Of a DNA stretch of 47,433 bases, positions 9,107-42,456 are shown in pieces. Source of the DNA: a virus. The notes beneath the pieces are model-generated. The model made no database searches and was not told the origin of the DNA. It saw only the letters and a list, made by a program, of their open reading frames with translations. The DNA lies in the IMG/VR virus record IMGVR_UViG_3300046660_000034, positions 1 through 47,433 of that record; one strand, written 5' to 3'. Both the position numbers and the translations under genes were made by a program. How positions within the stretch are numbered: the first letter of the stretch is position 1; every line of letters starts with the position of its first letter.

Positions 9107-9416
9107 ACTTGGCGACCTGCACAACAAGATGGCACAGGTTATGGGCAATGCCCTAACTCAGCTTGAAGTACAGCAGCAAGCATACGACATGGCGATGGCT
9201 AAGGCTATCGAGGAACAGAACCCAGAGTTGGCACCCGCCGCAGAACCGAACCTTAATCCGGCTCTGTTGTCCGTCATCGCTAGGTTTCTGGACAGCAATA
9301 AGATCACATGCGTACCGGAAGCCGGTAACGCTATGGGCGATCTGGAACGCAAGCTTGAAGCCAAGAAGGCTCGACGGGCGTTGAAAGTAGTCGGCGGCAT
9401 TAGCCACGACGAATAA
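9084..9416 (+). CDS. Small terminase subunit (DNA packaging, gp18-like)
   Basis: The protein has 110 residues starting with GTG 9084, eight bases after GGAGGG; it overlaps the holin end by 23 bases. It is helical and charged, with an Ala/Pro/Glu linker near residue 50 and a basic C-terminus (RKLEAKKARRALK). The small subunit recognises the concatemer and regulates the large subunit. The assignment comes from its position immediately upstream of the large terminase and its size; the sequence itself is not diagnostic. Confidence 0.65.
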   Translation: MAAATEGKLGDLHNKMAQVMGNALTQLEVQQQAYDMAMAKAIEEQNPELAPAAEPNLNPALLSVIARFLDSNKITCVPEAGNAMGDLERKLEAKKARRALKVVGGISHDE

Positions 9417-9427
9417 TGTACCTACTG

Positions 9428-9449
9428 GCTTGCTCCTACGGGAGCAGGC
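9428..9449 (+). other. 9-bp hairpin with UACG tetraloop between terminase genes
   Basis: GCTTGCTCC pairs with GGAGCAGGC (one T-G wobble) around TACG closed by C-G. It lies 12 bases after the small terminase stop and 24 bases before the large terminase ATG. It has the same loop as the hairpin at 3318 and no U-tract. A role in mRNA processing or stability is likely but inferred. Confidence 0.5.
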
Positions 9450-9472
9450 TTAATAGTTACATGGAGGCCATA

Positions 9473-11305
9473 ATGGCGGTTAGAGAAACCGTCGAACAGG
9501 CCTTAGAGCGGTGGCACTCACTAGAGTTGCTACAGGATCATTACAGAGAGTTCGAGGACTTTCTACGTGATGTCATTGAAGACCTTATGGGCTTTAATTG
9601 CTCTGAGGTCCAAGTAGACATCGGCAACTACATTGCGCACGGGCCGCAGTACCGCATGGTACAGGCTCAGCGTGGGCAGGCAAAGACTACCATCGCAGCG
9701 GCTTACGCCGTCTGGCGATTGATCCACAACCCGAAGACACGAGTTCTGATTATCTCCGCTGGTGATACTCAGGCTACTGAAATCGCGAACTGGATCATTC
9801 AGATCATCAACAACATGGATGAGCTTGAGTGCATGCGCCCAGACCGGGCTAATGGCGATAGAGCATCCGTGGAAGCATACGATATTCACTACAGCCTAAA
9901 GGGTGCGGAGAAATCCCCATCTGTTGCCTGTATTGGTATCACCTCGAACATGCAGGGCAAACGCGCTGATATCCTACTGGCCGACGACATCGAGAGCCAG
10001 AAGAACGGTGCTACACCGGTACAGCGCGACCGCTTGATACTGCTGTCGAAGGACTTCACATCCATTTGTAAGTCTGGCGAAATCATCTATCTCGGTACGC
10101 CTCAGACAGTGGACAGTGTGTACAACACCCTGCCCGCTCGCGGCTACGACATCAAGATTTGGCCGGGACGTTACCCGACGCCCAAGGAATTACCAGAGTA
10201 CGCGGGCCACCTAGCCCCATACGTGGCTGATCGCCTCGCTGCTGACCCAACTCTTGGGCAAGGCGGCGGTGCCATTGGCGACCGTGGGCAACCGGTTGAT
10301 CCGGTCTTGGTGAACGAGCTTGAACTTACAGCCAAGGAACTGGACCAAGGTCCGGCGTACTTCCAGCTACAGTACATGCTTAGCACGAGCCTATCGGACA
10401 GTAACAGGTTCCCGCTCAAGCTAAGCCAGCTTCGCGTTACGGCATTCGACCGTGACAACCTCATTGGTCCGATGACCATGAACTATGCGCGAACCGATCA
10501 GAACGTGTTGCAGCAGCCCCTGGGCTGGCCTACGACGCTGAAAGACCGCGTGTATAGGCTACAGGGCGTTGACGAATTCGCGGGCCTCAGCGGCCCTTAT
10601 ATGTACGTCGATCCTGCCGGTGGCGGACAGAACGCCGACGAAATCGCGGTTGCGATCACCGGGTTCCTAGCCGGTCGCGTGTTCCTTCTTTACGTAGACG
10701 GTCGTACTGGCGGTCCTACAGAAGCTAACCTTGAATGGCTCACCGAGCTTGCCAAGAAGTGGAAGGTACGGACCATTGGCATCGAGAAGAACTTCGGCAA
10801 CGGCGCGTTCCGCCTGATCTGGGAACCTGTACTAGTCAAGCAGCACAAGTGCGGCATTGAGGAAGTATGGGAGAGCGGTCAGAAAGAGCTACGCATTATC
10901 GACATACTTGAGCCTGTCATCAACAATGGCAAGCTTGTGGTACACGAGGACTTGTTCCGCGAGGATATCGAAAGTATCCAGCGTTATCCGGCAGCAGACC
11001 GGAATACGTACAGCGTCTGGCTACAGCTAGCCCGTGTTACCCGCGATAAAGGCGCATTGATCCATGACGATAGACTAGACGCTCTGGCGTCTGCTGTCCG
11101 GTTCTGGGTTGAGGCTCTTAGCGCCAATGACGAGCAGGCTCGCGCAGCCGCCCGTGCAGCAACATTCCGCAAGATGATGCAAGACCCGTTGGGTACTGGT
11201 CGCAAGCCCAAGGGCTTAGATCACGTCATCAATGCGAGCAGAGGCGAGACTGTCCACAACAGACAGGCACCTAACGCCCTGAACAAGTTCAGAAGGAAAT
11301 TCTAA
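9473..11305 (+). CDS. Large terminase subunit (packaging ATPase/nuclease, gp19-like)
   Basis: The protein has 610 residues from ATG 9473, seven bases after TGGAGG; an upstream in-frame ATG at 9416 has no ribosome site. The Walker A variant QRGQAKTT is at residues 66-73 and Walker B ILLADDIES at about 167-175, with Asp171-Asp172-Glu174. The C-terminal nuclease domain starts with YVDPAGGG (Asp380), continues with IGIEKNFGNG, and ends with DDRLDALASAV. These are the hallmarks of the T7 gp19/gp17-T4 motor that threads DNA through the portal and cuts it. The length is normal for the family. It overlaps the next gene by one base (TAATG). Confidence 0.93.
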   Translation: MAVRETVEQALERWHSLELLQDHYREFEDFLRDVIEDLMGFNCSEVQVDIGNYIAHGPQYRMVQAQRGQAKTTIAAAYAVWRLIHNPKTRVLIISAGDTQATEIANWIIQIINNMDELECMRPDRANGDRASVEAYDIHYSLKGAEKSPSVACIGITSNMQGKRADILLADDIESQKNGATPVQRDRLILLSKDFTSICKSGEIIYLGTPQTVDSVYNTLPARGYDIKIWPGRYPTPKELPEYAGHLAPYVADRLAADPTLGQGGGAIGDRGQPVDPVLVNELELTAKELDQGPAYFQLQYMLSTSLSDSNRFPLKLSQLRVTAFDRDNLIGPMTMNYARTDQNVLQQPLGWPTTLKDRVYRLQGVDEFAGLSGPYMYVDPAGGGQNADEIAVAITGFLAGRVFLLYVDGRTGGPTEANLEWLTELAKKWKVRTIGIEKNFGNGAFRLIWEPVLVKQHKCGIEEVWESGQKELRIIDILEPVINNGKLVVHEDLFREDIESIQRYPAADRNTYSVWLQLARVTRDKGALIHDDRLDALASAVRFWVEALSANDEQARAAARAATFRKMMQDPLGTGRKPKGLDHVINASRGETVHNRQAPNALNKFRRKF

Positions 11306-12954: not shown

Positions 12955-13180
12955 CATTCTTGCTGTACTGAAATCCAAGATCATGCAGTTCGCTACAATC
13001 GTGGTGTTCGTGCTGATCGTACTGGCTGGCGCATTTCGCGCCGGTCAGAAATCCTCCAAGGCCGATATCGCACAGTCCGCTGTACGTGAGGTCGCAACGA
13101 AAGCTCAAATCGATGCGCAAGTATCTGGCATGTCTGCTAGTGCTCGTCGTGACGAGTTGCGTAAGTGGGCCAACCAGTAA
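12947..13180 (+). CDS. Inner-membrane spanin (Rz-like)
   Basis: The protein has 77 residues: an N-terminal transmembrane segment (about 12-32, FATIVVFVLIVLAGAF) followed by a helical, charged, periplasmic-type region. The topology matches i-spanins, and a lipoprotein gene is nested in its 3' half in another frame, the classical Rz/Rz1 arrangement. In T7 the equivalent pair (18.5/18.7) lies beside the terminase genes, as here. Confidence 0.8.
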   Translation: MFSILAVLKSKIMQFATIVVFVLIVLAGAFRAGQKSSKADIAQSAVREVATKAQIDAQVSGMSASARRDELRKWANQ

Positions 13181-13307
13181 TTGGTGCCTGCTTAATCAAC
13201 CCATCCGGTACACACAGACCGAGATCGATCACCTGTCTGATACGAAGGTAGAGGAAGGTGTACAACATAACCGGTTCGGAGCAAAGCTCTGCGGCTGGAA
13301 AGCATAA
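13113..13307 (+). CDS. Outer-membrane lipoprotein spanin (Rz1-like)
   Basis: The protein has 64 residues from ATG 13113. It has a signal peptide MRKYLACLLVLVVTSC with a lipobox ending VTSC, so the predicted mature lipoprotein starts at Cys16. It overlaps the i-spanin gene by 68 bases in a different frame. Together they would fuse the inner and outer membranes after wall degradation. The upstream in-frame start at 13086 would put nine polar residues before the signal and is less likely. Confidence 0.8.
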   Translation: MRKYLACLLVLVVTSCVSGPTSNWCLLNQPIRYTQTEIDHLSDTKVEEGVQHNRFGAKLCGWKA

Positions 13308-13317
13308 GGACAATACA

Positions 13318-13605
13318 ATGACTGTTTCTTCCAATCCGGCACTGGTCGAGTTTCCGCGCGATACATGGGGTTTCACGACCGCATTGCGCAAGTATGGCCT
13401 ACTGGTAGCCGGTGCAATCCGAGGTGATGAGGCGAAGCTTGAGCTTTTCATCACGACCCTTGGTATCCTTGCACAGCATGCCCAAGCCCGCATCGAGGGC
13501 GACAAGGAGGCTCGTGCAGTCCGTCTGGCTGAGATTGCCGGCTCTGGCCGCGTCAATACGGCTGGTATTGCCCTTCCTGAACAGGAGAATGAAGCCAATG
13601 GGTAA
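13318..13605 (+). CDS. Small protein of unknown function in late operon
   Basis: The protein has 95 residues, ATG 13318 after AAGGACAAT. It has a mildly hydrophobic, helical middle (LRKYGLLVAGAI, LELFITTLGILAQHA) and a charged C-terminus. It overlaps the next gene by eight bases. I do not recognise it. Its place after the spanins and before two beta-rich small proteins suggests a virion or assembly role, but nothing in the sequence proves it. Confidence 0.6.
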   Translation: MTVSSNPALVEFPRDTWGFTTALRKYGLLVAGAIRGDEAKLELFITTLGILAQHAQARIEGDKEARAVRLAEIAGSGRVNTAGIALPEQENEANG

Positions 13606-13903
13606 GCCCATCGCATGGCCTTCCGTATCCAATACCGCCTACAAGGGCATGGTATCGGAAGTCCGCACCTATCTTAACATCTTGGGCCGCAGACTGACGC
13701 GTGCTCCGGGTGCAAACAACGACATTCGGAACCAGATTTCGACATTCCTGGCAGCATACGGCATCACGCCTCTGCTTCCGGCAAACCAGGCCATCGTCAC
13801 ATCGACGGTCAAGGTCATCATGCCAGCCTCCACCGGCTCGTATGTCAACGGCTACACCTTCACGGTAGTCGGCGGTGTCATTACCGCTGCTGTAGCCTCG
13901 TAA
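13598..13903 (+). CDS. Small protein of unknown function, possibly structural
   Basis: The protein has 101 residues from ATG 13598, ten bases after AGGAG; the ATG at 13589 is one base from that site. The C-terminal half is beta-rich and Thr/Ser/Val-rich (TVKVIMPASTGSY, YTFTVVGGVITAAVAS), reminiscent of small virion decoration proteins. It precedes a second beta-rich gene. No recognised family. Confidence 0.6.
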   Translation: MGKPIAWPSVSNTAYKGMVSEVRTYLNILGRRLTRAPGANNDIRNQISTFLAAYGITPLLPANQAIVTSTVKVIMPASTGSYVNGYTFTVVGGVITAAVAS

Positions 13904-13931
13904 TCCAGCCCATTAGTAGGAGAACTATACA

Positions 13932-14258
13932 ATGGCAAAGAACCGCATCGCTTCCCGCTCTGTCTCGCTGGCAGTACTGAACACCTGGTATCAGGTTCCG
14001 CTCGTCCAGTCCGGCAAGGAAGGCCATGTCCGTACCGTCTATGGTACGAACTCGCTCGCTACCATCGAAATTGCCCTGTCTGTTGCCGCTCCGGCTGGCG
14101 CAGGTACGGTACTTCCGGTCGTTGAAGCATCCCGTTACAGCATCCAGAACGCTGCTACGCATACCCTCTGGGTCCGTGCGACCAATGCAGCGGCTGTAGG
14201 CGCTTTCGTAGAGGTTGATCCCTCGGTGAATGGCAGCGTCCTGACCGTTACGGCCTAA
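13932..14258 (+). CDS. Small beta-rich protein, candidate decoration or fibre protein
   Basis: The protein has 108 residues, ATG 13932 behind AGGAGAACTATACA. It is mostly alternating hydrophobic/polar beta strands (WYQVPLVQSG, YSIQNAATHTLWVRA, GAFVEVDPSV), with no enzyme motif and no membrane segment. It is the last gene of the late operon; a UUCG hairpin follows the stop. A virion surface role is a guess from composition. Confidence 0.6.
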   Translation: MAKNRIASRSVSLAVLNTWYQVPLVQSGKEGHVRTVYGTNSLATIEIALSVAAPAGAGTVLPVVEASRYSIQNAATHTLWVRATNAAAVGAFVEVDPSVNGSVLTVTA

Positions 14259-14261
14259 TAT

Positions 14262-14512
14262 CCGTGTATTTGCCCGTGGGCGAGCTTCGGCTTTCTCACG
14301 GGTGATTGCCCATTTTATCCGTGCATCGCAGCCGTGGAGCAACGTCGTGGCAAGCAGGGCATGAAATCGGCTGAAACAGGGTTCCGATCCCGAAAACGAC
14401 GAATTTTTACGAGCGGGTATCTAATCCCACCGCGCCGCTGTGTTCCCCCGCTGGTAGCCTGTATAGTACCCGTGCTTTATAAACCGTGGTCATGATCCGT
14501 GTTTAAACCGTG
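14262..14512. repeat. Cluster of eight CCGTG pentamers
   Basis: CCGTG occurs at 14262, 14274, 14319, 14332, 14470, 14484, 14497 and 14508, all on the + strand. The last four are spaced 14, 13 and 11 bases and sit in an AT-rich context (ATAAACCGTG, TTTAAACCGTG). This looks like a protein-binding array; the binding protein is unknown. Confidence 0.4.
14273..14316 (+). terminator. Hairpin with UUCG tetraloop at end of late operon, probable transcript end
   Basis: CCCGTG pairs with CACGGG (14273-14278 with 14297-14302), and an inner AGC/GCT stem is capped by TTCG closed by C-G. It starts 15 bases after the last late gene. A TTTT run comes only at 14313, so efficiency as an intrinsic terminator is uncertain. 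Confidence 0.45.
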
Positions 14513-14513
14513 T

Positions 14514-14528
14514 TACAAGCCGGTTGTA
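14514..14528. repeat. 15-bp near-palindrome TACAAGCCGGTTGTA, copy 1
   Basis: An identical 15-mer recurs at 15460. Its two halves are almost self-complementary (TACAA/TTGTA around GCCGG), as in operators bound by dimeric repressors. The two copies bracket the promoter and AT-rich region. Confidence 0.5.
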
Positions 14529-14726
14529 TGCGATGGGACATAAGGGCAGGGTATGCACCCTTGTATAGCGTGTGGTTATGGACGTTCATGTCCGGGCATC
14601 TGTTTCCTTGTTATGTCCTTATCTCTCACTGTAGCCACACATTAAGCCTGTATCATACATATGTCAACACACTAGTATAAACATTCGTATATAAACCGGA
14701 TTATGCATACATATCAATAACATAGC

Positions 14727-14745
14727 CTTCCGGACCCTTTTAGGA
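14727..14745 (+). promoter_or_regulatory. Phage RNA polymerase promoter P2 in the large non-coding region
   Basis: This is an exact match to the 19-bp phage promoter. No gene start follows for 1.3 kb. Instead an AT-rich tract begins directly after it, so it may prime replication and/or make a long untranslated RNA reaching the gene at 16068. Confidence 0.85.
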
Positions 14746-14747
14746 AT

Positions 14748-15065
14748 ACAGGCCTGCTGTATCGGTTTAAGCAGATATACGGATGTATATATGAACAGTT
14801 AGATACTAGATAGCATACCAGAATATCATACTAGATGGATATGATAGGTGATAGAGACAGTACATAGATATAACATAGGATAGTACATAGATATCATACA
14901 TAGGTTATGAACATAGATAACCATAGATGATAATATAGATCATACTACTAGTACATACTAGGTTATACTATAGTATAATATACCAACAATATACCATCAA
15001 TGTATGGAATATCATAGGTAGAAACCAGATTAATATACATATTCGTAAATCAATAACATTGTAAT
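14748..15065. other. AT-rich tract behind promoter P2, candidate replication origin
   Basis: About 320 bases are strongly AT-rich with many ATAGAT/CATAGA words. The 13-mer AGTACATAGATAT is directly repeated at 14859 and 14882. I see no reading frame of note. In T7 the primary origin is a phage promoter followed by an AT-rich segment; the same arrangement here is the reason for the call. No direct evidence of initiation. Confidence 0.45.
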
Positions 15066-15101
15066 TATCTAATACGATTGTCTCGACAGTATATGGTCTA
15101 T

Positions 15102-15115
15102 CCCTAAATTTAGGG
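15102..15115. promoter_or_regulatory. Perfect palindrome CCCTAAATTTAGGG
   Basis: A 14-bp perfect dyad at the downstream edge of the AT-rich tract, followed by GTTTG. It could be an operator or a small hairpin; no protein can be assigned. Confidence 0.35.
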
Positions 15116-15396
15116 GTTTGTACTTATCCGCAAATCACCTAAATGACAGCGGCTAACACCAGTCCGAAAATAACATTCAACCATTTCAATGCGTTAGGAT
15201 AGGTACAGGCTTATTTACTGGTTTATTGGTACTAGACCACTAGACAAGCCTACCAGAACAGGACTAGTGTTAGCTCATCGAAACGACAACGGCACACGGC
15301 CTAGACGGTTCAGACGCTCTAAACGCTACGGCAGCTTGAGCTATGACACTGAAATGCAGGTGATGCTAAGCCGCTAGATACAGACTGAACTAACGC

Positions 15397-15462
15397 AGTG
15401 CATACCGACTACAAACTACCGCTTGACAGTGCATACGAACTAAGCCTACTGTAAGTGCATAC
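15397..15462. repeat. Three direct repeats of AGTGCATAC
   Basis: Copies are at 15397, 15428 and 15454, in direct orientation and 31 and 26 bases apart. The middle one overlaps a TTGACA hexamer (15423-15428), and a TACTGT lies 18 bases further on, so a host-type promoter covered by binding sites is possible but weak. Confidence 0.35.
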
Positions 15463-15474
15463 AAGCCGGTTGTA
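15460..15474. repeat. 15-bp near-palindrome TACAAGCCGGTTGTA, copy 2
   Basis: Identical to 14514-14528 and overlapping the third AGTGCATAC repeat by three bases. Confidence 0.5.
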
Positions 15475-15506
15475 ACACGCTGGATAGCGTCAAGACCGCC
15501 AGTTGA

Positions 15507-15524
15507 ACCTAGCTGATACTAGGT
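15507..15524. promoter_or_regulatory. Inverted repeat ACCTAG-N6-CTAGGT, operator-like
   Basis: A perfect 6-bp dyad with a 6-base spacer directly before the large hairpin at 15525. It could bind a dimeric regulator or form the base of the RNA structure. Confidence 0.35.
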
Positions 15525-15905
15525 ATCACATTGCTACCTCAACAAAGGGTAGCGCCCCTAATGTGATCGTATGGACGGAAGTCCGCTTGTGTACCGGCGC
15601 TAATGCCGATAGCCAAGGGCGAGAATGCCTACTAGCTAGCGTATACATGATAGAACCATCGTAGGACAACGCGAGTTGTCTGTCCGGAAGGATGTAGCCT
15701 TAATTGGCTAGCGAGCAGGCTTGCGGTTAGTACAGGGTGTCATGTCTTAAGCCGGAACGGCTGGCCGCGAATGGTTTGACATGCGGGGTTAGTGTAGTCG
15801 CTAGTACAACACACACAAAGCTACGGTAGAGTGTGATGCATGCAGGTTCCGGCCTGTGTGATGTAGTCAAGGCAAATGGCTTAGCTAACCAAGGGTCGTA
15901 ACAAC
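15525..15905 (+). ncRNA. Densely folded non-coding stretch, candidate structured RNA
   Basis: There is no plausible reading frame, but stem-loops follow each other. ATCACATT-GCTACC pairs with GGTAGC...AATGTGAT (14 bp, 15525-15567). GGAC-GGAA-GTCC is at 15573-15584 and CGGC/GCCG at 15595-15608. GACAAC-GCGA-GTTGTC (GNRA loop) is at 15665-15680. TAGCC-TTAATT-GGCTA lies near 15696-15711. CATGTC/GACATG (15741-15783) encloses AGCCG-GAA-CGGCT. CAGG/CCTG lies near 15843-15856. The base composition is balanced, unlike the AT-rich tract before it. It lies on the + strand downstream of promoter P2. I cannot match it to a known RNA family from memory. A chance run of hairpins or a leader for the gene at 16068 are alternatives. 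Confidence 0.35.
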
Positions 15906-16067
15906 TTTGTTATCTTGCATATACCAGTATCGATAGCGCCACGGTATTACCTCAACAACGCTATTATGCCGGGTATATTAACCAGTCGGTACAGCGTCGT
16001 ACTCTGGTATATGCGAGATAACAAACGTTATCTGCACATTATGTGCTTATCCATAGGAGTACCAACT

Positions 16068-16607
16068 ATGACTAAGACCAATAAAGCAGACGCCGCTACC
16101 GATGGTTTCAAGGCTATCGAGCGCAAGGACTTGCACAAGACGGAGCAGGCAATCTATGCCGCCCTCAAGTCAATCCAGAACCGTGGCCGTTCGTTGCAGA
16201 ACGACGTACACAAGGCAGCATGCAGTGTGCTTGAGCACATTGAACTGCACCATGACGTGACCATGATCGACAAGTTCATTGGCACGCTCATCAACCACCT
16301 GCCGAAGTCGTACCGCATCAACGCTATGCGTGACTGGCTTACGGCATACGGGCCGGTCAAGTTCGAGAACAACAAGCCGGTCTATGTGAAGGACAAGCCG
16401 TGCGATGTGGCGGAAGCATTGCGCAATCCCTTCTGGCTGTTCTCGCCGGAAGCCGAATACAAGCCGATGGACGTGACCGCTGCCATCAATGCCTTGCTCA
16501 AGAAGCTCGACAAGGATGCAGACGAGACGAAGCGCGACCATTCGGCAATCAAGGCGGCGCTTGAGGCTGCTATCCAGCCGAAGGCAACGGTTACGACCAA
16601 TGCCTAA
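16068..16607 (+). CDS. Early protein of unknown function (179 aa)
   Basis: ATG 16068 follows TAGGAGTACCAACT, a good ribosome site; upstream in-frame starts lack one. The protein is mostly helical and charged. A central segment HKAACSVLEHIELHHDVTM precedes a short strand pair rich in basic residues (VKFENNKPVYVKDK). The C-terminus is Ala/Lys-rich. No catalytic motif is visible. It is the first gene after the large non-coding region, so it is probably expressed first. Function unknown. Confidence 0.75.
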   Translation: MTKTNKADAATDGFKAIERKDLHKTEQAIYAALKSIQNRGRSLQNDVHKAACSVLEHIELHHDVTMIDKFIGTLINHLPKSYRINAMRDWLTAYGPVKFENNKPVYVKDKPCDVAEALRNPFWLFSPEAEYKPMDVTAAINALLKKLDKDADETKRDHSAIKAALEAAIQPKATVTTNA

Positions 16608-16828: not shown

Positions 16829-16877
16829 GTAACCGCCTGCACTACGGGCGATTGCGCAAACGAAACAGAATTCCGAA
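16829..16877 (+). repeat. 49-bp intergenic repeat, copy 1 (partner 19908-19956)
   Basis: It matches 19908-19956 at 42 of 49 positions, in the same orientation. The start (GTAACCGCCTGCACT) and the last 20 bases (ending AATTCCGAA) are identical. The variable middle still allows a 4-bp stem in each copy (CGCC/GGCG here, CTGC/GCAG in the other). The two copies bracket the integrase/attP block. Confidence 0.7.
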
Positions 16878-18218: not shown

Positions 18219-18437
18219 ATGGCAAACAGACGGCTTGCACTCTCACAGCGTCAAATCGAGGCGTTGTGCAAGGGTGCGGCACGGGCAAACATGAGCCCGG
18301 AGATAAACATCAACGGTACATGGGTACGGCTAATACCTAATGTACATACTGCGCTTGCTGCTCCCGCTGTAATGAGTAGGGAGCAGGAACTGGACGACGA
18401 GATAGATAGGTTCAAGGCCAAACATGGTTACAGTTGA
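18219..18437 (+). CDS. Candidate excisionase or integrase-accessory protein (72 aa)
   Basis: ATG 18219 lies downstream of CGGAGAACC. The N-terminal part (ALSQRQIEALCKGAARANM) could be a helix-turn-helix-sized unit; the C-terminus is acidic and charged. It overlaps the integrase start by 14 bases, so the two are co-translated. Small genes in this position are often recombination directionality factors. The sequence itself does not prove this. Confidence 0.55.
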   Translation: MANRRLALSQRQIEALCKGAARANMSPEININGTWVRLIPNVHTALAAPAVMSREQELDDEIDRFKAKHGYS

Positions 18438-19485
18438 TCTGAAAGGCGTTCATCGGGTCGAGGCTAAAGGCAACGTCTACTACTACGCATGGCGTGGCGG
18501 TCCAAGACTTAAAAGCAAGCCCGGAACACCAGCATTCATCGCAGAGTATAACGAAGCGTTGGAAAGCCGGATAGTGCCCGACCACGCTAAATTCAGGTCG
18601 CTCATACGAGCTTATGAGCAAAGCACTGACTACCAGAAACTGGCTGCGAGCACTAAGCGCAACTGGTCGCGTATGCTCAAGATAATCGATAATCATTTCG
18701 GTGAAATGAGCATTGCGGCATTTGATCGGACGAAGAAGATACGCCCGGTCATACGGCAATGGCGTGGACAGTATGCAGAGACGCCGCGCACCGCTGACTA
18801 CGGTATGCAGGTGTTGTCTCGTGTATTGTCCTACGCTGTTGATCCGCTCGGTAAGATCGCTGCCAATCCGTGCGAGGGCATCAAGTCATTGTACTCCAAT
18901 GACCGCTCAACAATCATATGGACGGATGAGGATATACAGGAGTTTAAGACAGCTATGGACAAGAAAGGTAAACTGTATTGCTCGGTAGAGATGGCTCACG
19001 CTATGGACCTTGCAATCAATACTGGCTTGCGCGTTGGCGACCTTGTTAAATTGCGCTGGGATCAAGTACGGGGCAATGCTATCTTTGTTGCTACTGGCAA
19101 GAGCGGCGGCAAGACCGAAGCAATCATTCCGATGCACGATGATCTACGAGAGTTGCTTGCGAAAATACCCAAGCGTGCTGTTACTGTACTCACTAGCAGC
19201 ACCGGCATGCCGTGGACCGAGAACGGTCTAGCATCGTCGTTCCATACAGCTAAGAAGGGATTGAGCGAGGACAAGCGCGGCTTGCACTTCCACGACCTAC
19301 GCGGAACAGCAGCCACCAAGTTCTACATCGCCGGACTAGAGGAACGCGTGATCGCAGAGATCATGGGATGGTCAGAAGATGAGGTAAAGAAGATCATTCG
19401 CAGGTACGTAGGCAGACAGGCGGCGACACTAGCACTCATCGAGCAGATGAAGGCGAATGTAAAACCGGCTGTAAAACAAGCCTAA
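18424..19485 (+). CDS. int: Tyrosine-family site-specific integrase
   Basis: The protein has 353 residues. The catalytic domain shows the full set: Arg203 (TGLRVGDL), Lys226/Lys230 in the beta-hairpin (TGKSGGKTE), His290-x-x-Arg293 (HFHDLRGTAATKF), Trp316 in the usual His/Trp place (IMGWSEDE) and the nucleophile Tyr328 (RRYVGR). A SAM-like core-binding domain occupies about 55-160, and a short N-terminal beta part probably binds arm sites. It would join attP at 19529-19577 to the host tRNA-Gly gene. An integrase is unusual but known among T7-like phages. It ends only about 20 bases before the attP region, the usual arrangement. Confidence 0.95.
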   Translation: MVTVDLKGVHRVEAKGNVYYYAWRGGPRLKSKPGTPAFIAEYNEALESRIVPDHAKFRSLIRAYEQSTDYQKLAASTKRNWSRMLKIIDNHFGEMSIAAFDRTKKIRPVIRQWRGQYAETPRTADYGMQVLSRVLSYAVDPLGKIAANPCEGIKSLYSNDRSTIIWTDEDIQEFKTAMDKKGKLYCSVEMAHAMDLAINTGLRVGDLVKLRWDQVRGNAIFVATGKSGGKTEAIIPMHDDLRELLAKIPKRAVTVLTSSTGMPWTENGLASSFHTAKKGLSEDKRGLHFHDLRGTAATKFYIAGLEERVIAEIMGWSEDEVKKIIRRYVGRQAATLALIEQMKANVKPAVKQA

Positions 19486-19704: not shown

Positions 19705-19911
19705 ATGGCCCGAATTTTGATTGTCACCGATCTACATCAGAACGTTCAGGCGGCGTTCACCGTCGAGGCGGAATGCCGCGATTACCTCATACGAAACAAC
19801 GCTAAGTACCTTATGGTGCTTAAGCTACTAGACGGCGTACCAGCGTGCTCACAGCATAAGGAATACCGTCTTGCTGAGCAGTGGTTGATAGACCACGCTT
19901 GGCCCGAGTAA
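19705..19911 (+). CDS. Small protein of unknown function (68 aa)
   Basis: ATG 19705 follows TTGGAGGACACCTAA, a strong ribosome site. It starts MARILIVTDLHQN, resembling a Rossmann-type first strand, but is far too short for a known enzyme. Its stop codon lies inside the second copy of the 49-bp repeat. Function unknown. Confidence 0.65.
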   Translation: MARILIVTDLHQNVQAAFTVEAECRDYLIRNNAKYLMVLKLLDGVPACSQHKEYRLAEQWLIDHAWPE

Positions 19912-19956
19912 CCGCCTGCACTCAAGCAGATTGCAGAAACGAAACAGAATTCCGAA
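19908..19956 (+). repeat. 49-bp intergenic repeat, copy 2
   Basis: Partner of 16829-16877 (42/49 identical, direct orientation). It begins in the stop codon of the preceding gene. Here the variable part forms CTGC-ACTCAA-GCAG. The 148 bases after it, up to 20104, hold no gene that I can support, only the ribosome site TAGGAG at 20091. Confidence 0.7.
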
Positions 19957-25394: not shown

Positions 25395-26992
25395 CAAAGT
25401 GGTCCGAACTCTCTGCTGAGAAGCGAGAGGAATACAACGCGGCCAAGCGCAAGGCGCGGGCTGCGCGGAAGAAGATCGGATGGCTCAAGCCTGAGCAGTC
25501 CGACAAGAAACGCGCTGACGCCGATCCTCGTCCGATTGCGGGCGGTTCTATCCCCGATCCCTCGGAGAAGCGGCCAAGGCTTCCCGGTAAGCGGTTCATC
25601 CTCACCAGCGCACAGAACAACACCACGCTACACGAGGACTTCTGGAATGCGCTACAGACTTTTGCAGCAGAGCGAGGTGCTACGCTGCTGGTCAGCCGTT
25701 ATACCTATAACAAGAACGCATGGCGCAGTGCTAGCGCTCACGACGAAGGCGTCAATGCCACGGAGGACAGTGACAGCATCTGGTATGATCCTCGGATTAC
25801 GCCATACCTGTGTGACAGACAGGTCAAACTTGCAGACGACTTGGTATTCTGCGGTGAGTTGGATATCCTCCCCACCGCTGCAACGCCCCTCGAAAGCCTA
25901 CGTTCCTACACCGGTCAAAATTCCGGTATTGTGCCTCATGCAAAGGTACACATGGTTAGCCAAGCAACAATGCTGGACGACCCTGCCAAGCTCATGTACA
26001 GCACCGGAACTGTTACCCTGCGAAACTACATTGACCGCAAAGCAGGACAGGTGGCAACTTTCCACCATATGTTTGCTGCACTCTATGTGGAGGTAGACGA
26101 GGACGGTGACTGGTTCGCACGGCAGCTAATTGCCGATGACAACGGCGTGTTCTACGACCTAGACACGGCGTACGGCCCAGGCTGGTCCAAACCGGCAACC
26201 GACTTCGGAGATACAGTCGTCACCCTTGGCGACATCCACGTCGAGAAGGTTGACGCAGTTGCACTATCTGGTGCAATCGAGATGACGCAGTTCGTGAGGG
26301 CTAGGCATGCTACGGTGCATGACCTTGAGGACTTCACGCACAGAAATCACCACAACATCAACGACCCGTACTTCCTAGTCGAGCAGCACTTCCAAGGTGT
26401 CAAGTCGGTGGAAGCGGGCATGGCTATGGGCGCTCGTCTCTTGGCCGGTCTGCATAGAGCACTGCCTGATACGCAGTTGATCGTCATCAGATCGAACCAC
26501 GATCAAGCATTCGAGCGGTGGCTCAAGAATAGTACAGCCTTCTCTGATCCGGCCAACGCTCCATACTGGTGCACGGCTAACGCAGCGAAGCTCAACGCTA
26601 TTCGCCACGGCAAGGAACTGGATGTCTTCGTATGGGCCATGCACTACGCTGCTGCCTACGAAGGCTTCCCGCTGACGAACGTACGCTTTGTACAAGAGGA
26701 CGAAAGCGTTGTCATTAACGACATCGAACACGGGATGCATGGGCATCGTGGACCGAACGGGGCGAAGGGCAATCCAAAGTCGTTCCGGCAGATGGGTCGA
26801 AAGGTCAATACTGCTCACACTCACAGTGCTGGCATCATTGATGGGGTCTGGACAGCCGGAACTCTCAGCCTACTACGCCTTGGCTACAATGCAGGCCCAA
26901 GCTCGTGGTCTCATTCCAGCATTATCACGTATCCGTCGGGCAAACGAGCGATCGTTACGCAACGTGGTGCGAAATGGAGGGCAATAGCATGA
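25391..26992 (+). CDS. Calcineurin-like metallophosphoesterase
   Basis: The protein has 533 residues. A very basic N-terminus (residues 10-70) precedes the enzyme. Metal-binding motifs in order: GDIHVEK (Asp-x-His, about 277-283), VIRSNHDQAF (Asn-His-Asp), HGMHGHRG and AHTHSAGI (His-x-His). Such enzymes act as phosphodiesterases or nucleases on DNA or nucleotides. The location between helicase and nucleotide-pool genes suggests a role in DNA metabolism; the substrate cannot be read from sequence. Confidence 0.75.
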   Translation: MTKWSELSAEKREEYNAAKRKARAARKKIGWLKPEQSDKKRADADPRPIAGGSIPDPSEKRPRLPGKRFILTSAQNNTTLHEDFWNALQTFAAERGATLLVSRYTYNKNAWRSASAHDEGVNATEDSDSIWYDPRITPYLCDRQVKLADDLVFCGELDILPTAATPLESLRSYTGQNSGIVPHAKVHMVSQATMLDDPAKLMYSTGTVTLRNYIDRKAGQVATFHHMFAALYVEVDEDGDWFARQLIADDNGVFYDLDTAYGPGWSKPATDFGDTVVTLGDIHVEKVDAVALSGAIEMTQFVRARHATVHDLEDFTHRNHHNINDPYFLVEQHFQGVKSVEAGMAMGARLLAGLHRALPDTQLIVIRSNHDQAFERWLKNSTAFSDPANAPYWCTANAAKLNAIRHGKELDVFVWAMHYAAAYEGFPLTNVRFVQEDESVVINDIEHGMHGHRGPNGAKGNPKSFRQMGRKVNTAHTHSAGIIDGVWTAGTLSLLRLGYNAGPSSWSHSSIITYPSGKRAIVTQRGAKWRAIA

Positions 26993-35024: not shown

Positions 35025-37514
35025 ATGACAATCGAACAACAGTTGGAACTTGAGCGCAAAATGGTTGAGCGCGGCAAGGAACTGTACCGTTTGAGTGTCA
35101 AGAACGCGGAAGAAACTGGACGTGGGCACGAGACGACACCTGCTCGGAAGATGATGCAGGAGTTCATCCACCCACTAGCCGCAGCACTTGAGGAATGGGC
35201 TAATATTAAGGGGCCTGGCGCAAATGGTTTGTACCGGCCTCTTATCCGCATCTGTGATCCACAGATCGCAATCTACCTCGCGCTGTATAAGCTGTTCGAC
35301 AGTTTCGCCATTGAGCAATCCCTAACGACTACCGCAGGCCAGATTGGTCGCATGGTCGAGGATGAGCTACGTTTCACGGCATTCAAGGAGAAGTTTAGCA
35401 ACTACTACGACGAAGTGTTGCAGGACTTCAAACGCAAGGGTACAGAGAACTACCGGCACAAGCATCGGGTATTGACCCATAAAGCTAATGAGTACGAGGA
35501 CGGCTGGATAGACTGGTCGCCCTCCGAACGTATCGGCGTAGGGATGAAGTTGATTGACATCATCCTAGAGAACACGGACCTCATACGGAAGACCGAGTTC
35601 TTCGCCAAGAACAAGACACAGATACGTGTCGAGCCTACCGACAGCGCCCTTGAGTGGATCGAAGATCACCATGAGATGCGCGAGCTTCTGAACCCTGTCC
35701 GCATGCCTTGCGTGATCGAACCCGATCCTTGGACCAGCGTGGACCAGGGCGGGTACTATTCGCCAGAGATACGGTCGCTGACCAAGCTGATTAAGTTCGG
35801 CAATGGTGGCAAGAAGGAACATGCCCGGCATATCAACCGGCACAATGCGCGGCTGTTTGACAAGCCTATCAAGGCCGTCAACCACATGCAGAAGACGCCG
35901 TGGGCAGTCAATACCGTAGTGCTGGACATAGCCCGTGAAGCATGGGCCAGGAACCTAGCCATCGGCATGCCGCACAAGGACAAGCTGGAACCGCCAACCT
36001 CGCCTGTCAAGGACATCCCCAAGGACGAAATGACAGACGAACAGATGGCAATGTTCGAGGATTGGAAACATGAAGCATCCAGCGTCTACACGCAAGAGAA
36101 GGAACGCATTGCAAAGTCTTTCCAGACTACCAGGATACTTAGACTTGCTGGCGAGTACCGCGACCTTCCATCGTTCTGGTACGTTTGGTACATGGACTTT
36201 CGGGGTCGTATGTATACCGCAACTAATGGCTTCTCTCCACAGGGGCCTGACATGGCCAAAGGGCTATTAAGGTTCGCTAGTGGCAAGCCTCTAGGTGCGA
36301 ACGGTCTGTACTGGCTGATGGTCAACATAGCCAACCGGTTTGGCTACGACAAGGAAGATTACGACACCCGCGTACAGTGGGTGCGTGACAGACACCTGAA
36401 CTGGATGGCTGTCGCCCAAGACCCGCTTTCGAACCGGGAACATTGGGCCGGGGCGGATAAGCCTTGGCAGATGCTGGCGACCGTTCTGGAATACGCTGCT
36501 GCCCACGAGATGGCCTCTCTGGGCTTCCCGATTGAAGAGTACGTGTCTCACATCCCGATTGGGCTCGACGGCTCCTGTAACGGCCTACAGAACTTTTCGG
36601 CCATGCTCCGCGATCCGGTCGGCGGGGCTGCTACGAACCTAGTACCACAAAGCAAACCAGCGGACATCTACACGGCTGTAGGAACAGTTTGTGCTGGCAA
36701 GCTACGCAGGCTCAAGTTGGAAGACTTGATCGAGGACGAGCACAAGGTTGCTCTCATGCAGTGGTACAAGTTCATGGACTTCCACGGTAAGGGCGGACTG
36801 CCGCGCAAGATACCTAAACGACCCGTGATGACCCTACCCTATGGGGCAACACGACAATCCTGCACGAAGTACATCTACGAGGGCATCGTGTCCATCGAAG
36901 GTACGGACAAGGATAAGTTCGTTATCAAGGTCGGGCGGTTCAAGGCTAGCACGTTCCTTACGCCTTACCTTTGGGCATCCATTGGCGAGGTAGTGGTTGC
37001 TGCACGACAGGCTATGGACTGGCTACAGAAATGCGCTGGCATAGTGGCTAAGGAAGGCCCGCTGTACTGGTTCACGCCAGACGGCTTTCCGGTCTACCAA
37101 GCGATATACAAGACGGAAGACATCCGAGTACGCACGCAGCTTGCAGGCGATTTGAGACTAAAGATCAGTCAGTACACAGACGAGATTGACCCACGGGGTA
37201 TGCGCTCATCAGTGTCACCGAACTTTGTCCACAGTATGGACGCCGCGCATTTGCGCGAGACCGTACGCCGCTGCGAAGAACTCGGCATTACAGACATTGC
37301 TTGTATCCACGATGACTACGGCACATACGCCTGCGACACAGATGCACTGCATAGCATCATCCGTGAAGCGTTCATCCACCTGTACTCGACGCACGACCCG
37401 CTACAAGAGTTCAGTGACCAGCAGACAGAACTTGGACACGTCATGCCAGAGATGCCTACCAAGGGCGATCTGGATATCGAACAAGTCCGACACTCCAAAT
37501 ACTTCTTTGGCTGA
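35025..37514 (+). CDS. Single-subunit DNA-directed RNA polymerase, T7-like
   Basis: The protein has 829 residues. Palm and finger motifs are intact: IGLDGSCNGLQNFSAMLRD with catalytic Asp515, KRPVMTLPYGATRQ with Lys598 and Tyr606, and CIHDDYGTYA with His762-Asp763. VSPNFVHSMDAAHL is also conserved. It should transcribe from the five CTTCCGGACCCTTTTAGGA promoters in this genome; no other phage-type polymerase is present. It lies between replication and structural genes, as in phiKMV-like phages, so its own expression must depend on an upstream transcript. Confidence 0.96.
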   Translation: MTIEQQLELERKMVERGKELYRLSVKNAEETGRGHETTPARKMMQEFIHPLAAALEEWANIKGPGANGLYRPLIRICDPQIAIYLALYKLFDSFAIEQSLTTTAGQIGRMVEDELRFTAFKEKFSNYYDEVLQDFKRKGTENYRHKHRVLTHKANEYEDGWIDWSPSERIGVGMKLIDIILENTDLIRKTEFFAKNKTQIRVEPTDSALEWIEDHHEMRELLNPVRMPCVIEPDPWTSVDQGGYYSPEIRSLTKLIKFGNGGKKEHARHINRHNARLFDKPIKAVNHMQKTPWAVNTVVLDIAREAWARNLAIGMPHKDKLEPPTSPVKDIPKDEMTDEQMAMFEDWKHEASSVYTQEKERIAKSFQTTRILRLAGEYRDLPSFWYVWYMDFRGRMYTATNGFSPQGPDMAKGLLRFASGKPLGANGLYWLMVNIANRFGYDKEDYDTRVQWVRDRHLNWMAVAQDPLSNREHWAGADKPWQMLATVLEYAAAHEMASLGFPIEEYVSHIPIGLDGSCNGLQNFSAMLRDPVGGAATNLVPQSKPADIYTAVGTVCAGKLRRLKLEDLIEDEHKVALMQWYKFMDFHGKGGLPRKIPKRPVMTLPYGATRQSCTKYIYEGIVSIEGTDKDKFVIKVGRFKASTFLTPYLWASIGEVVVAARQAMDWLQKCAGIVAKEGPLYWFTPDGFPVYQAIYKTEDIRVRTQLAGDLRLKISQYTDEIDPRGMRSSVSPNFVHSMDAAHLRETVRRCEELGITDIACIHDDYGTYACDTDALHSIIREAFIHLYSTHDPLQEFSDQQTELGHVMPEMPTKGDLDIEQVRHSKYFFG

Positions 37515-38921: not shown

Positions 38922-40511
38922 ATGAGCACATCCAGTGCGCCAAGGGGTAGCATACGACATAGATGGGAAACACTGCATCACTGTAAGGGCGACTTGCTCC
39001 AACGGTCCGAACAGTATTCCGCATGGACATTGCCCAATGTCTTTCCCGAAGAGAACTTCGGCAAGAGCATAGAACTAATGCAGTCTAACGACAGCGTTGG
39101 TGCTCGTGGTCTTAACAGCATGGCTAACAAAGTTGTTACGACCCTATTCCGTATGCAAGGTACATTCTTCCGGCTACACTTGGATGAGACACAGCGAGAA
39201 CAACTCGAAGCTCTCAGCAAGGACAGCAAGAAGGCAGACGTAGGTCAAGCTCTTAGCAAGATCGACCAAGTATTCAACAGCGCCGAGCGCAAGGCAATGG
39301 ATCGCCTTGCGATGGTACAGTTCCGCGACAAGGCAGTAGACATTGCCAAGTTGCTGCTAATCACTGGCAACGCACTACAGTACATCCCAGAAGGCGGCGG
39401 ACCTACTCAGGTCTACTCGCTTCGTGACTACTCGATAGTGCGCGATGTGGCCGGTACAGTCATCGAGATTGTAACCCGCGATAGCAAAGCATTCGAGACG
39501 TTCTCGGATGACGTCAAGGCCCAACTCCGCTTCACCAAGCAGTATTCCAGAGATGGCTACGAGGATCGAACTCCCGTTGTCATCTATACGCGTATCCGCC
39601 TTGAAGACGATGGCAAGTACCACGTCACGCAGGCTGCGGACCTCGTAGACCTGGACCTTGGCGATCAGCCGGTGTCCTACCCCAAGAAGCTGCTTCCGTG
39701 GCTTCCGCTTACGTGGAACCTTGCCAGAGGCGAGGACTACGGGCGTGGTCTTGTAGAAGACTACAGCGGGGCTTTCCACAGCATTGAAGTCCTCACGCAA
39801 AGCCTGATTAACATGGCTGGCGTCATGGGCGACATTAAGTACCTCGTCAACCCGGCTTCCATGCTGGACGTTGAGTTACTGAACAGATCGCCTAGTGGCT
39901 CGTACCACTCAGGTAAGGAAGGTGACATCACGTCGCCTCAGCTTGATAAGCAGCGGGATGCACAGTTCATCCTGTCTATGATCGACCGCTTCACGCAACA
40001 GATCAGTCAAGCGTTCATGCTGAACAGCGGCATGGTGCGGGACGCAGAGCGCGTTACCGCCGAAGAAATCCGTATGATCGCACAGGAACTTGAGAACGCC
40101 CACGGTGGCGTCTACTCACGTCTGGCGCACCAGTGGCAGCAGCCGCTGGCATACATCCTCCTTGATACTATCGGCTTCGATGGTGCTCGTTGGGGAGTAG
40201 AGCCACGGATCGTTACTGGCATGGACAACCTGTCCCGTGCTGGCGAAATGGACAACGTGCGTCTCTGGATTGCCGACCTAGCCGGACTGGAAGCAGTACC
40301 GGAAGACATTCGCGGGGTTATCAACCCACTCAAGTTCGCAGAGTTCTGCGGTCTCAACAGACAGGTCGATTGGGCCAAGCTCTGCTACACGGACCAAGAA
40401 CTACAGGCCAAGCAACAGCAGCAGATGCAGCAGCAACAGCAGCTAATGAATGCACAGGCCGGTGCGAACATCCAACAGAAGGCAGGTGAAGCTGCCGTGA
40501 CACAGGAATAA
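38922..40511 (+). CDS. Portal (head-tail connector) protein, gp8-like
   Basis: The protein has 529 residues, after AAGGAGCTACC. The N-terminal RWETLHHCKGDLLQRSEQYSAW and SVGARGLNSMANKVVTTLF segments and the DAERVTAEEIR segment match T7-type portals. The C-terminus is a Gln-rich helix (AKQQQQMQQQQQ), as in the barrel or crown. It forms the dodecameric ring that DNA passes through, contacting terminase, scaffold and tail tube. The length is normal for the family. Confidence 0.93.
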   Translation: MSTSSAPRGSIRHRWETLHHCKGDLLQRSEQYSAWTLPNVFPEENFGKSIELMQSNDSVGARGLNSMANKVVTTLFRMQGTFFRLHLDETQREQLEALSKDSKKADVGQALSKIDQVFNSAERKAMDRLAMVQFRDKAVDIAKLLLITGNALQYIPEGGGPTQVYSLRDYSIVRDVAGTVIEIVTRDSKAFETFSDDVKAQLRFTKQYSRDGYEDRTPVVIYTRIRLEDDGKYHVTQAADLVDLDLGDQPVSYPKKLLPWLPLTWNLARGEDYGRGLVEDYSGAFHSIEVLTQSLINMAGVMGDIKYLVNPASMLDVELLNRSPSGSYHSGKEGDITSPQLDKQRDAQFILSMIDRFTQQISQAFMLNSGMVRDAERVTAEEIRMIAQELENAHGGVYSRLAHQWQQPLAYILLDTIGFDGARWGVEPRIVTGMDNLSRAGEMDNVRLWIADLAGLEAVPEDIRGVINPLKFAEFCGLNRQVDWAKLCYTDQELQAKQQQQMQQQQQLMNAQAGANIQQKAGEAAVTQE

Positions 40512-41475: not shown

Positions 41476-42456
41476 ATGGCAGGAGAACTTCCTACCGATA
41501 GCTCGCATCTCAGCGACGTGTCCGTCGATCTGCTTCTTGAGCAGTACGGCGGTGAGGTTGAGAGCCAGTTCAAGAAGACTTCGATCATGCGCCAGTACGC
41601 GCGCATTCGTCCGGTACTTGGTACGGACACGATCACCAATAACCGCGTAGGTCGTACGCAGCTACAGGCACTGACGCCCGGCGTTCGTCCTGATGGCACG
41701 GCCACTCCGTTCGGCAAGGTCTCGCTGACGGTTGATACCATCATCCTCGCCCGCGACAACCGTTCGCTGCTCAATGAATTGCAGTCGCACTTCAATGCTC
41801 GCATGGAACTCGCGCAGGATCATGGCAAGGAAATCTCGTACTTCTTTGACGAGGCTTTCATCATCATGGGCATCAAGGGCGCTGGTATGGCTGCCCCGAC
41901 CGATACGATCAACAGCCTCGGCCAGAACTCGATTGGTGCAGGCCGGACCAAGACGCTCGCCGCCGCTGGTGACGAACTCGACCCGGACAAGCTGTACCGT
42001 GCAATCGCCGACATCATCGTCCTGATGGAAGAAGACGAAATCCCGGTTGAAGAACTGGTAGTCTTCGTTCGTCCGACCGAATTCGACGTACTGCTCGACA
42101 ACGACAAGCTCATCCGCTCGGAGTTCAGCGCCGACAACGGCGACTTTGCCAAGGGCCTGATCTGGTCGATCAAGGGCGCGCGTATCGTCAAGACCGCTCG
42201 TATCCCCAAGAACGCCATCACCGGCCACAAGTTGTCCAATGCCCGTAACGGCAATGCGTACGACATCTCCGCAGCAGAAGCCAAGTGCGCCGCTGTCATC
42301 CTGCACCCGAAGTCCCTGCTCGCAGGCGAGACTGTGCCGCTGACCTCGGACGTCTGGTTCAACCGCGAAGAGAAGCAGTGGTTCATCGATAGCTTCCTGT
42401 CGTTCGGCGTCACCGTCAACCGTCCTGACGTTTGCGGTCGCGTCCTCAAGTTCTAA
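41476..42456 (+). CDS. Major capsid protein, gp10-like
   Basis: The protein has 326 residues from ATG 41476 (AGAAGGAATACACACT before it). HK97-fold character is visible as the N-terminal arm, an E-loop region near residues 60-80 (TQLQALTPGVRPDGT), the spine helix NELQSHFNARMELAQDHG, and the P-domain EELVVFVRPTEFDVLLDNDK as in T7-like capsids. Codons are strongly C/G-ending, as in a very highly expressed gene. It has its own promoter upstream and a strong terminator downstream. Confidence 0.93.
   Translation: MAGELPTDSSHLSDVSVDLLLEQYGGEVESQFKKTSIMRQYARIRPVLGTDTITNNRVGRTQLQALTPGVRPDGTATPFGKVSLTVDTIILARDNRSLLNELQSHFNARMELAQDHGKEISYFFDEAFIIMGIKGAGMAAPTDTINSLGQNSIGAGRTKTLAAAGDELDPDKLYRAIADIIVLMEEDEIPVEELVVFVRPTEFDVLLDNDKLIRSEFSADNGDFAKGLIWSIKGARIVKTARIPKNAITGHKLSNARNGNAYDISAAEAKCAAVILHPKSLLAGETVPLTSDVWFNREEKQWFIDSFLSFGVTVNRPDVCGRVLKF

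Follow-up and report, generated by a model that had tools for sequence, protein, structure and literature searches.

In the genome of phage T7, gene 0.3 near the left end is preceded by early promoters, an untranslated leader and the RNase III site R0.3, and we know of no structured leader RNA of the kind reported here in T7. The large RNAs known from phages are few, and what most of them do is poorly understood. GOLLD and ROOL, which are borne by phages or prophages and often lie near tRNA islands, share with OLE a large and ornate build and a poorly understood function (PMC12286853). STnc6030 of prophage BTP1, a large RNA of 786 nt that acts in superinfection exclusion, is complementary to structural-gene mRNA and encoded in cis, opposite its target (PMC12197685). 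The c4 RNA of P1/P7 is a structured antisense RNA with short segments complementary to phage mRNA, in its case the ant antirepressor mRNA around the ribosome binding site (PMC12197685), and structural-gene regulation has been proposed for an antisense transcript near the capsid gene, within the structural region, of LUZ100, a T7-like phage with temperate features (PMC10134795).

The window, by which we mean the whole stretch of DNA analysed (47,433 nucleotides), covers nearly the whole genome of a T7-like podophage that infects rhizobia. It encodes a DNA polymerase as well as the following landmark genes:

9416-11305, large terminase subunit
18424-19485, integrase
35025-37514, single-subunit RNA polymerase
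38922-40511, portal
41476-42456, capsid

The nearest named relatives are the Rhizobium phages RHEph15, RHEph27, RHph_TM34, Y2_7, Y48 and Y1_20 (about 68-74% identity in the RNA region), with X3_9 (about 52%) and Paso (about 46%) further away over the same region, and all of them have a gap of comparable length that separates the right-end genes from the first early gene. The two ends of the contig repeat each other (1-1311 and 46123-47433, 95.7% identity) and may come from two strains; at this identity the self-overlap is imperfect, and a genome length of about 46.1 kb is probable. Two further repeats were observed in the early region and beside the integrase gene: a 49-bp direct repeat (16829-16877 and 19908-19956, 86% identical), possibly a pair of regulatory sites, and a 21-bp inverted repeat with a 57-bp loop directly after the integrase gene (19508-19528/19586-19606), which might provide attP arm sites or form a processing hairpin. 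The attL/attR marks in the records of some relatives are 12-bp features whose positions vary by record, and were set aside.

An earlier note on this DNA had proposed a large structured RNA at 15080-15910, in a gene-free gap of 1.8 kb without a credible reading frame. The gap indeed has no credible frame: no + strand ORF of at least 55 aa lies in 14681-15914 and none of at least 80 aa on either strand in 14343-15914, and a coding explanation was rejected. The proposed interval is structured, but about 15277 is the probable start of the RNA, and its last structural element extends as far as 16025. The main features of the gap are:

14420, probable left terminus of the physical phage genome (TCTAAT...) and start of the direct terminal repeat, placed by homology with Paso and Palo
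14725-14748, + strand, phage RNA polymerase promoter-like repeat CTTCCGGACCCTTTTAGGAATA, which recurs in the window
15184-15196, + strand, IHF-like site TTTCAATGCGTTA, which differs from WATCAANNNNTTR at one position
15241-15270, + strand, candidate early host promoter, -35 TAGACA (15241-15246), 18 bp, -10 TAGTGT (15265-15270)
15277-16067, + strand, structured early RNA and leader of the gene at 16068, identified by covariation and by the syntenic ORF-free gap in relatives
15906-16025, + strand, terminal hairpin with 22-bp arms (15906-15927/16004-16025), a 95% inverted repeat
16055-16607, + strand, first early gene with its SD-like AGGAG (16055-16059), ATG at 16068, 179 aa, PHROG 1448, function unknown

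The records of Paso (repeat 1-371) and Palo (1-260), whose terminal repeats are PhageTerm predictions, both start with TCTAATAC. The Paso record ends in ...ATTTTTACGTGCGGGTA, and the window reads ATTTTTACGAGCGGGTA^TCTAATC at about 14420, some 850 bases upstream of the structured part. The repeat at 14725-14748 is probably the promoter P2 of the earlier note; in the form CTTC(C/T)GGACCCTTTTAGGA it occurs five times in the window, always on the + strand (at about 6908, 14726, 31899, 37517 and 41401; chance expectation 0), and is a clear candidate for the promoter that the phage RNA polymerase uses. X3_9, RHEph02 and Atu_ph03 have diverged forms of it. Between this repeat and the RNA, AT-rich repeats of the CATAGATA/TACTAGATA type fill 14750-15060; they are present in most relatives and are origin-like.

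The IHF consensus is WATCAANNNNTTR, and 11 of the 22 related gaps contain it exactly, most of them at the equivalent position, whereas shuffled sequence gives 0.4. The boxes in the window (TAGACA-18-TAGTGT), from which the start at about 15277 is predicted, match the promoter consensus weakly; at the equivalent position, just 3' of the IHF-like site, X3_9, Atu_ph03, L035 and L037 have TTTACA/TTGCAA-16/18-TATAA(C/A). In several gaps the IHF consensus is followed by a sigma-70-like promoter directly before the conserved RNA start, and this conservation supports a promoter-like element at 15184-15270. At the other end of the RNA, the terminal hairpin shows an A-U to G-C double change in TM34/Y1_20, and its position is taken by long hairpins of unrelated sequence in Palo, L118, L025, L030, L049, L054, L067 and L117. 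It resembles an RNase III substrate, and cutting is predicted.

The locus therefore appears to hold an untranslated leader between the terminal repeat with its early promoter and the first early gene, as T7-type left ends do. It shares with T7 the terminal repeat, a phage promoter near the end, one or more host promoters, the untranslated leader and a hairpin before the first early gene. The suggestion that the RNA might serve the gene at 16068 as a long leader is supported by this synteny with the T7 early leader and by the promoter-like element directly before the structured part; moreover, no terminator is evident ahead of the first gene, whose ATG is preceded by the long hairpin and the SD-like AGGAG. 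Unlike that of T7, however, the leader is a conserved multi-helix RNA of 630 nt, accompanied by an IHF-like site and an antisense segment. It differs from GOLLD, ROOL and OLE in lacking an Rfam match and in its genome context; from STnc6030 in being structured and trans-encoded, 23 kb from its predicted target; from c4 in being a large leader RNA that would act on head genes; and from the LUZ100 transcript in lying at the left end.

The RNA can be divided into the following parts, which include the stems that had been noted before:

15307-15356, + strand, motif A, a conserved 5' domain (GGUUC..GCUCUAAACGCUACGGCAGCUUGAGC..GACACUG), aligned with X3_9 and Paso
15477-15490, + strand, hairpin ACGCU-GGAU-AGCGU, with a double change to GCGCU/AGCGC in X3_9; also in L035/L042 and L044
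15507-15524, + strand, hairpin with an invariant CUGAUA loop, the loop constant and the stem replaced
15525-15567, + strand, interrupted stem, a lineage-specific insertion held by the window, Y2_7, TM34 and RHEph27
15565-15728, + strand, central domain closed by GAUCGUA/UGCGGUU (15565-15571/15722-15728), with compensatory changes
15573-15584, 15595-15608, 15617-15630, 15664-15681, 15682-15693 and 15695-15710, + strand, hairpins of the central domain
15741-15783, + strand, three-way junction of CAUGUC/GACAUG, AGCCG-GAA-CGGCU and GGCC-GCGAAU-GGUU, every arm of which covaries (Y2_7, Y1_20, X3_9)
15787-15890, + strand, long-range helix GGUUAGU/GCUAACC (15787-15793/15884-15890) around a UUCCG hairpin (15839-15860)

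The stem at 15525-15567 and the hairpins GGAC-GGAA-GUCC (15573-15584) and GGACAAC-GCGA-GUUGUCU (15664-15681) are real. However, the first of these, described as a 14-bp stem, is an insertion missing from RHph_Y1_20 and X3_9 and does not belong to the core, and the GNRA loops, although present, are not conserved. The helix CAUGUC/GACAUG (15741-15746/15778-15783) was correctly seen to enclose AGCCG-GAA-CGGCU, but the element is really a three-way junction, with GGCC-GCGAAU-GGUU as its third arm. A 10-nt likeness of GTCGTAACAA to the 3' end of 16S rRNA was discarded as chance-level for a comparison of this size.

Several helices are replaced wholesale between relatives. For instance, the stem below the CUGAUA loop is ACCUAG/CUAGGU in the window, CUAGGG/CCCUAG in X3_9 and UCCUG/CAGGA in Paso; helices of the central domain become CUUACGUAA/UUGCGUAAG in Y1_20 and GUACGGAUCAUG/CAUGGUCCGUAU in X3_9; and the long-range helix GGUUAGU/GCUAACC becomes GGAUAUCC/GGGUAUUC in Y1_20 and GUAUGAC/GUCAUAC in X3_9. 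The last of these keeps an identical register in four lineages in A3, an unfitted MAFFT alignment made on sequence only (five relatives, window positions 15735-15902, four named helices). In A3 the four helices are paired in 95.2% of cells, compared with 25-40% for slid structures, and 13 pairs show double-sided change, compared with 0-4 (0 of 500 shuffles as good). RNAalifold independently recovers the main helices of A3, with double-sided changes in 25 of its 44 pairs. Among 16 hand-listed helices, double-sided change affects 68 of 86 positions, and strands of the same phage pair at 438 of 438 positions while strands swapped between phages pair at 61%, a figure that illustrates the pattern and is no test of it, since these helices were picked for pairing. 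In the covarying helices, read on the + strand, 21 cells hold G.U and one holds A.C, a count somewhat biased by the selection of helices on that strand; tolerance of G.U and not of A.C points to a + strand RNA and not to a DNA site or the other strand.

The covariation sought in relatives is thus present, and it is the decisive evidence that the fold is conserved. We conclude that the interval from the left end to the first early gene contains a + strand locus for a structured RNA of about 630-790 nt, and we have little doubt that it is a structured early leader. In RHph_Y1_20 (L014) the equivalent of about 15459-15790 is clearly diverged while its flanks are highly similar to those of sister phages, and this central domain looks to have been swapped by recombination with the fold retained.

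Folding energy was rejected as a proof in itself, being modestly unusual and too weak across the likely transcript. The comparison with shuffled sequence that had been proposed gives an excess for 15100-16067 (z = -4.67 on the + strand and -3.33 on the - strand), but a small one over the likely transcript (15277-16067, z = -1.90, equalled by 0 of 20 shuffles) and its inner part 15500-15905 (z = -1.86, equalled by 4 of 100). The + strand z is negative in all of 19 other gap regions from related phages (-0.9 to -6.9) and runs from +0.6 to -2.1 in coding controls of the window, values that are rough at 16 shuffles each.

A covariance model of the 3' domain (R1) recovers the window and seven named phages, all at E < 1e-30, and nothing convincing outside this clade. 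Other lineages share the layout and single motifs but not the 3' domain: many alphaproteobacterial relatives among the Autographiviridae have an ORF-free gap of 1-2 kb in the equivalent position, motif A is found in Paso and, by nhmmer, in L022 (1e-5), L026 (9e-5) and L024 (0.003), and the ACGCU-GGAU-AGCGU hairpin recurs in L035 and L044. A related metagenome phage has, downstream of its ORF-free gap, a Type II hammerhead ribozyme that scores above the Rfam gathering score (L046:11002-11065). Rfam holds no family at its gathering threshold in the whole window and none at E <= 1 in 14250-16100, no tRNA or tmRNA was found, and no described relative of the RNA was found in the open-licence papers searched. 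Covariation in relatives together with the absence of an Rfam match agrees with the proposal of a new structured phage RNA, and the RNA is not previously catalogued.

A possible partner of the RNA lies among the head genes:

15892-15912, + strand, antisense segment AGGGTCGTAACAACTTTGTTA, the exact complement of 39125-39145
39125-39145, + strand, target TAACAAAGTTGTTACGACCCT in the portal gene (38922-40511), codons 68-75

The 21 nt pair without mismatch, and the match is kept in the window and in six of six close relatives checked. In X3_9 the homologous segment, AGGCGAAACACATTGTGTT, is antisense to another site (X3_9 25668-25686; 18 nt exactly, 19 with a G.U), which is flanked by the scaffold and capsid genes and directly precedes a phage promoter. 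If the partner stretches are set aside, the longest antisense match in every other 1-kb stretch is at most 15 nt in the window and at most 14 nt in X3_9. Likewise, the best antisense duplexes of the RNA genome-wide reach -32.8 kcal/mol (window) and -30.8 kcal/mol (X3_9), and the next best about -24. The RNA is therefore complementary to phage mRNA beyond chance, as trans-acting antisense phage RNAs are.

Guide and target are invariant within the close clade, so any intermolecular covariation has to be read from the comparison with X3_9 alone. A prophage search found a related portal in two of 397 genomes of the order, none close enough to serve as an independent guide. The portal target carries no synonymous change in five relatives, a weak support given that 46 of 522 windows of equal size are likewise unchanged. 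In predicted folds the antisense segment is largely paired internally and the portal target partly so. In the gap of L117, a Pannonibacter prophage (13148-15122), the best antisense duplex falls in the scaffold gene (17 bp, -34 kcal/mol); its target is a low-complexity proline-rich repeat, and this match was excluded from the argument.

These observations can be assembled into a model of an early leader RNA acting in trans as antisense on head-gene mRNA, a tentative reading to which we give somewhat less than an even chance. At the onset of infection the host RNA polymerase would transcribe the RNA, as leader of the early operon, from the IHF-assisted promoter at 15184-15270, and the phage polymerase would do so again from 14726. 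RNase III would then cut the 22-bp terminal hairpin, as at the R0.3 site of T7, and so separate a processed early mRNA from a stable RNA with the antisense segment at its 3' end. This segment would pair in trans with head-gene mRNA, portal in the window phage and the scaffold-capsid junction in X3_9, and restrain the production of heads, be it early in infection, during lysogeny or by a superinfecting relative. The steps become less secure from transcription as a leader, through cutting by RNase III, for which T7 provides the analogy, to pairing in trans. Transcription, trans regulation and its purpose (head-gene timing, lysogeny or superinfection control) are what we infer, and the match to head genes suggests, short of proof, that the RNA times capsid production. 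A rather unlikely extension is that the segment at the foot of the processing hairpin is re-targetable, is exposed by cutting, and silences head-gene mRNA of the phage itself or of superinfecting relatives.

The same leader may instead act in cis only, protecting and processing the early mRNA and setting translation of the first gene, with an antisense match that is coincidental or otherwise caused. We consider this reading doubtful although well short of negligible. It fits a location that in every relative immediately precedes the first early gene and a hairpin that adjoins the SD-like sequence, and most lineages with this layout have no such match; a comparable one is absent from Paso, Palo, RHEph02, Atu_ph03, L118, L119 and G151, so that an antisense function, if real, would be confined to the clade. 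Nevertheless, two lineages have, at the same position of the RNA, an outlying match to different sites of the head region, and the size of the RNA and the number of its conserved elements exceed the needs of processing.

Both targets are near-palindromic, like operators, with cores TAACAA-NN-TTGTTA and ACACA-N-TGTGT, and the phage has an integrase gene; the sequence shared over 21 bp (and 18 bp) might be a DNA operator, present once in the early leader and once among the head genes, that serves a phage repressor in lysogeny control. This is improbable, as only two genomic sites occur at up to 2 mismatches, the identity runs 7 nt past the palindrome and operators usually vary, the first site of the window lies within a helix whose pairing is kept and the second inside coding sequence, and no repressor gene was identified in the window phage. 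Still less probable is an assembled particle or scaffold (with ribosome or protein, or as a cage) comparable to GOLLD/ROOL assembly, in which the antisense segment would be incidental. Size, ornateness and phage origin would suit it, and the invariant loops CUGAUA, GAGAAU and UUCCG suggest tertiary or protein contacts, but neither sequence nor structure matches the Rfam models of GOLLD, ROOL or OLE, membership of which is unsupported, and an early leader is not the tRNA-island neighbourhood in which GOLLD and ROOL are often found (PMC12286853). A DNA element whose hairpins are needed as DNA, such as a replication origin or the packaging signal once considered here, has the nearby genome end and, as at T7 origins, AT-rich repeats and a phage promoter upstream in its favour, but is very improbable given the G.U and A.C counts above and an end at about 14420, outside the structured part.

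With its early-leader position, likely promoter, processing-type hairpin and predicted partner in portal or capsid mRNA, the RNA described here has a function that is directly testable in cultured Rhizobium etli phages, and RHEph15, RHEph27, RHph_TM34 and X3_9 are sequenced isolates usable for laboratory work. A leader acting in trans would also bear on how integrase-carrying T7-like phages restrain their late genes. If the antisense segment is truly re-targetable, it would represent an RNA-based late-gene timer or immunity in a T7-like temperate phage.
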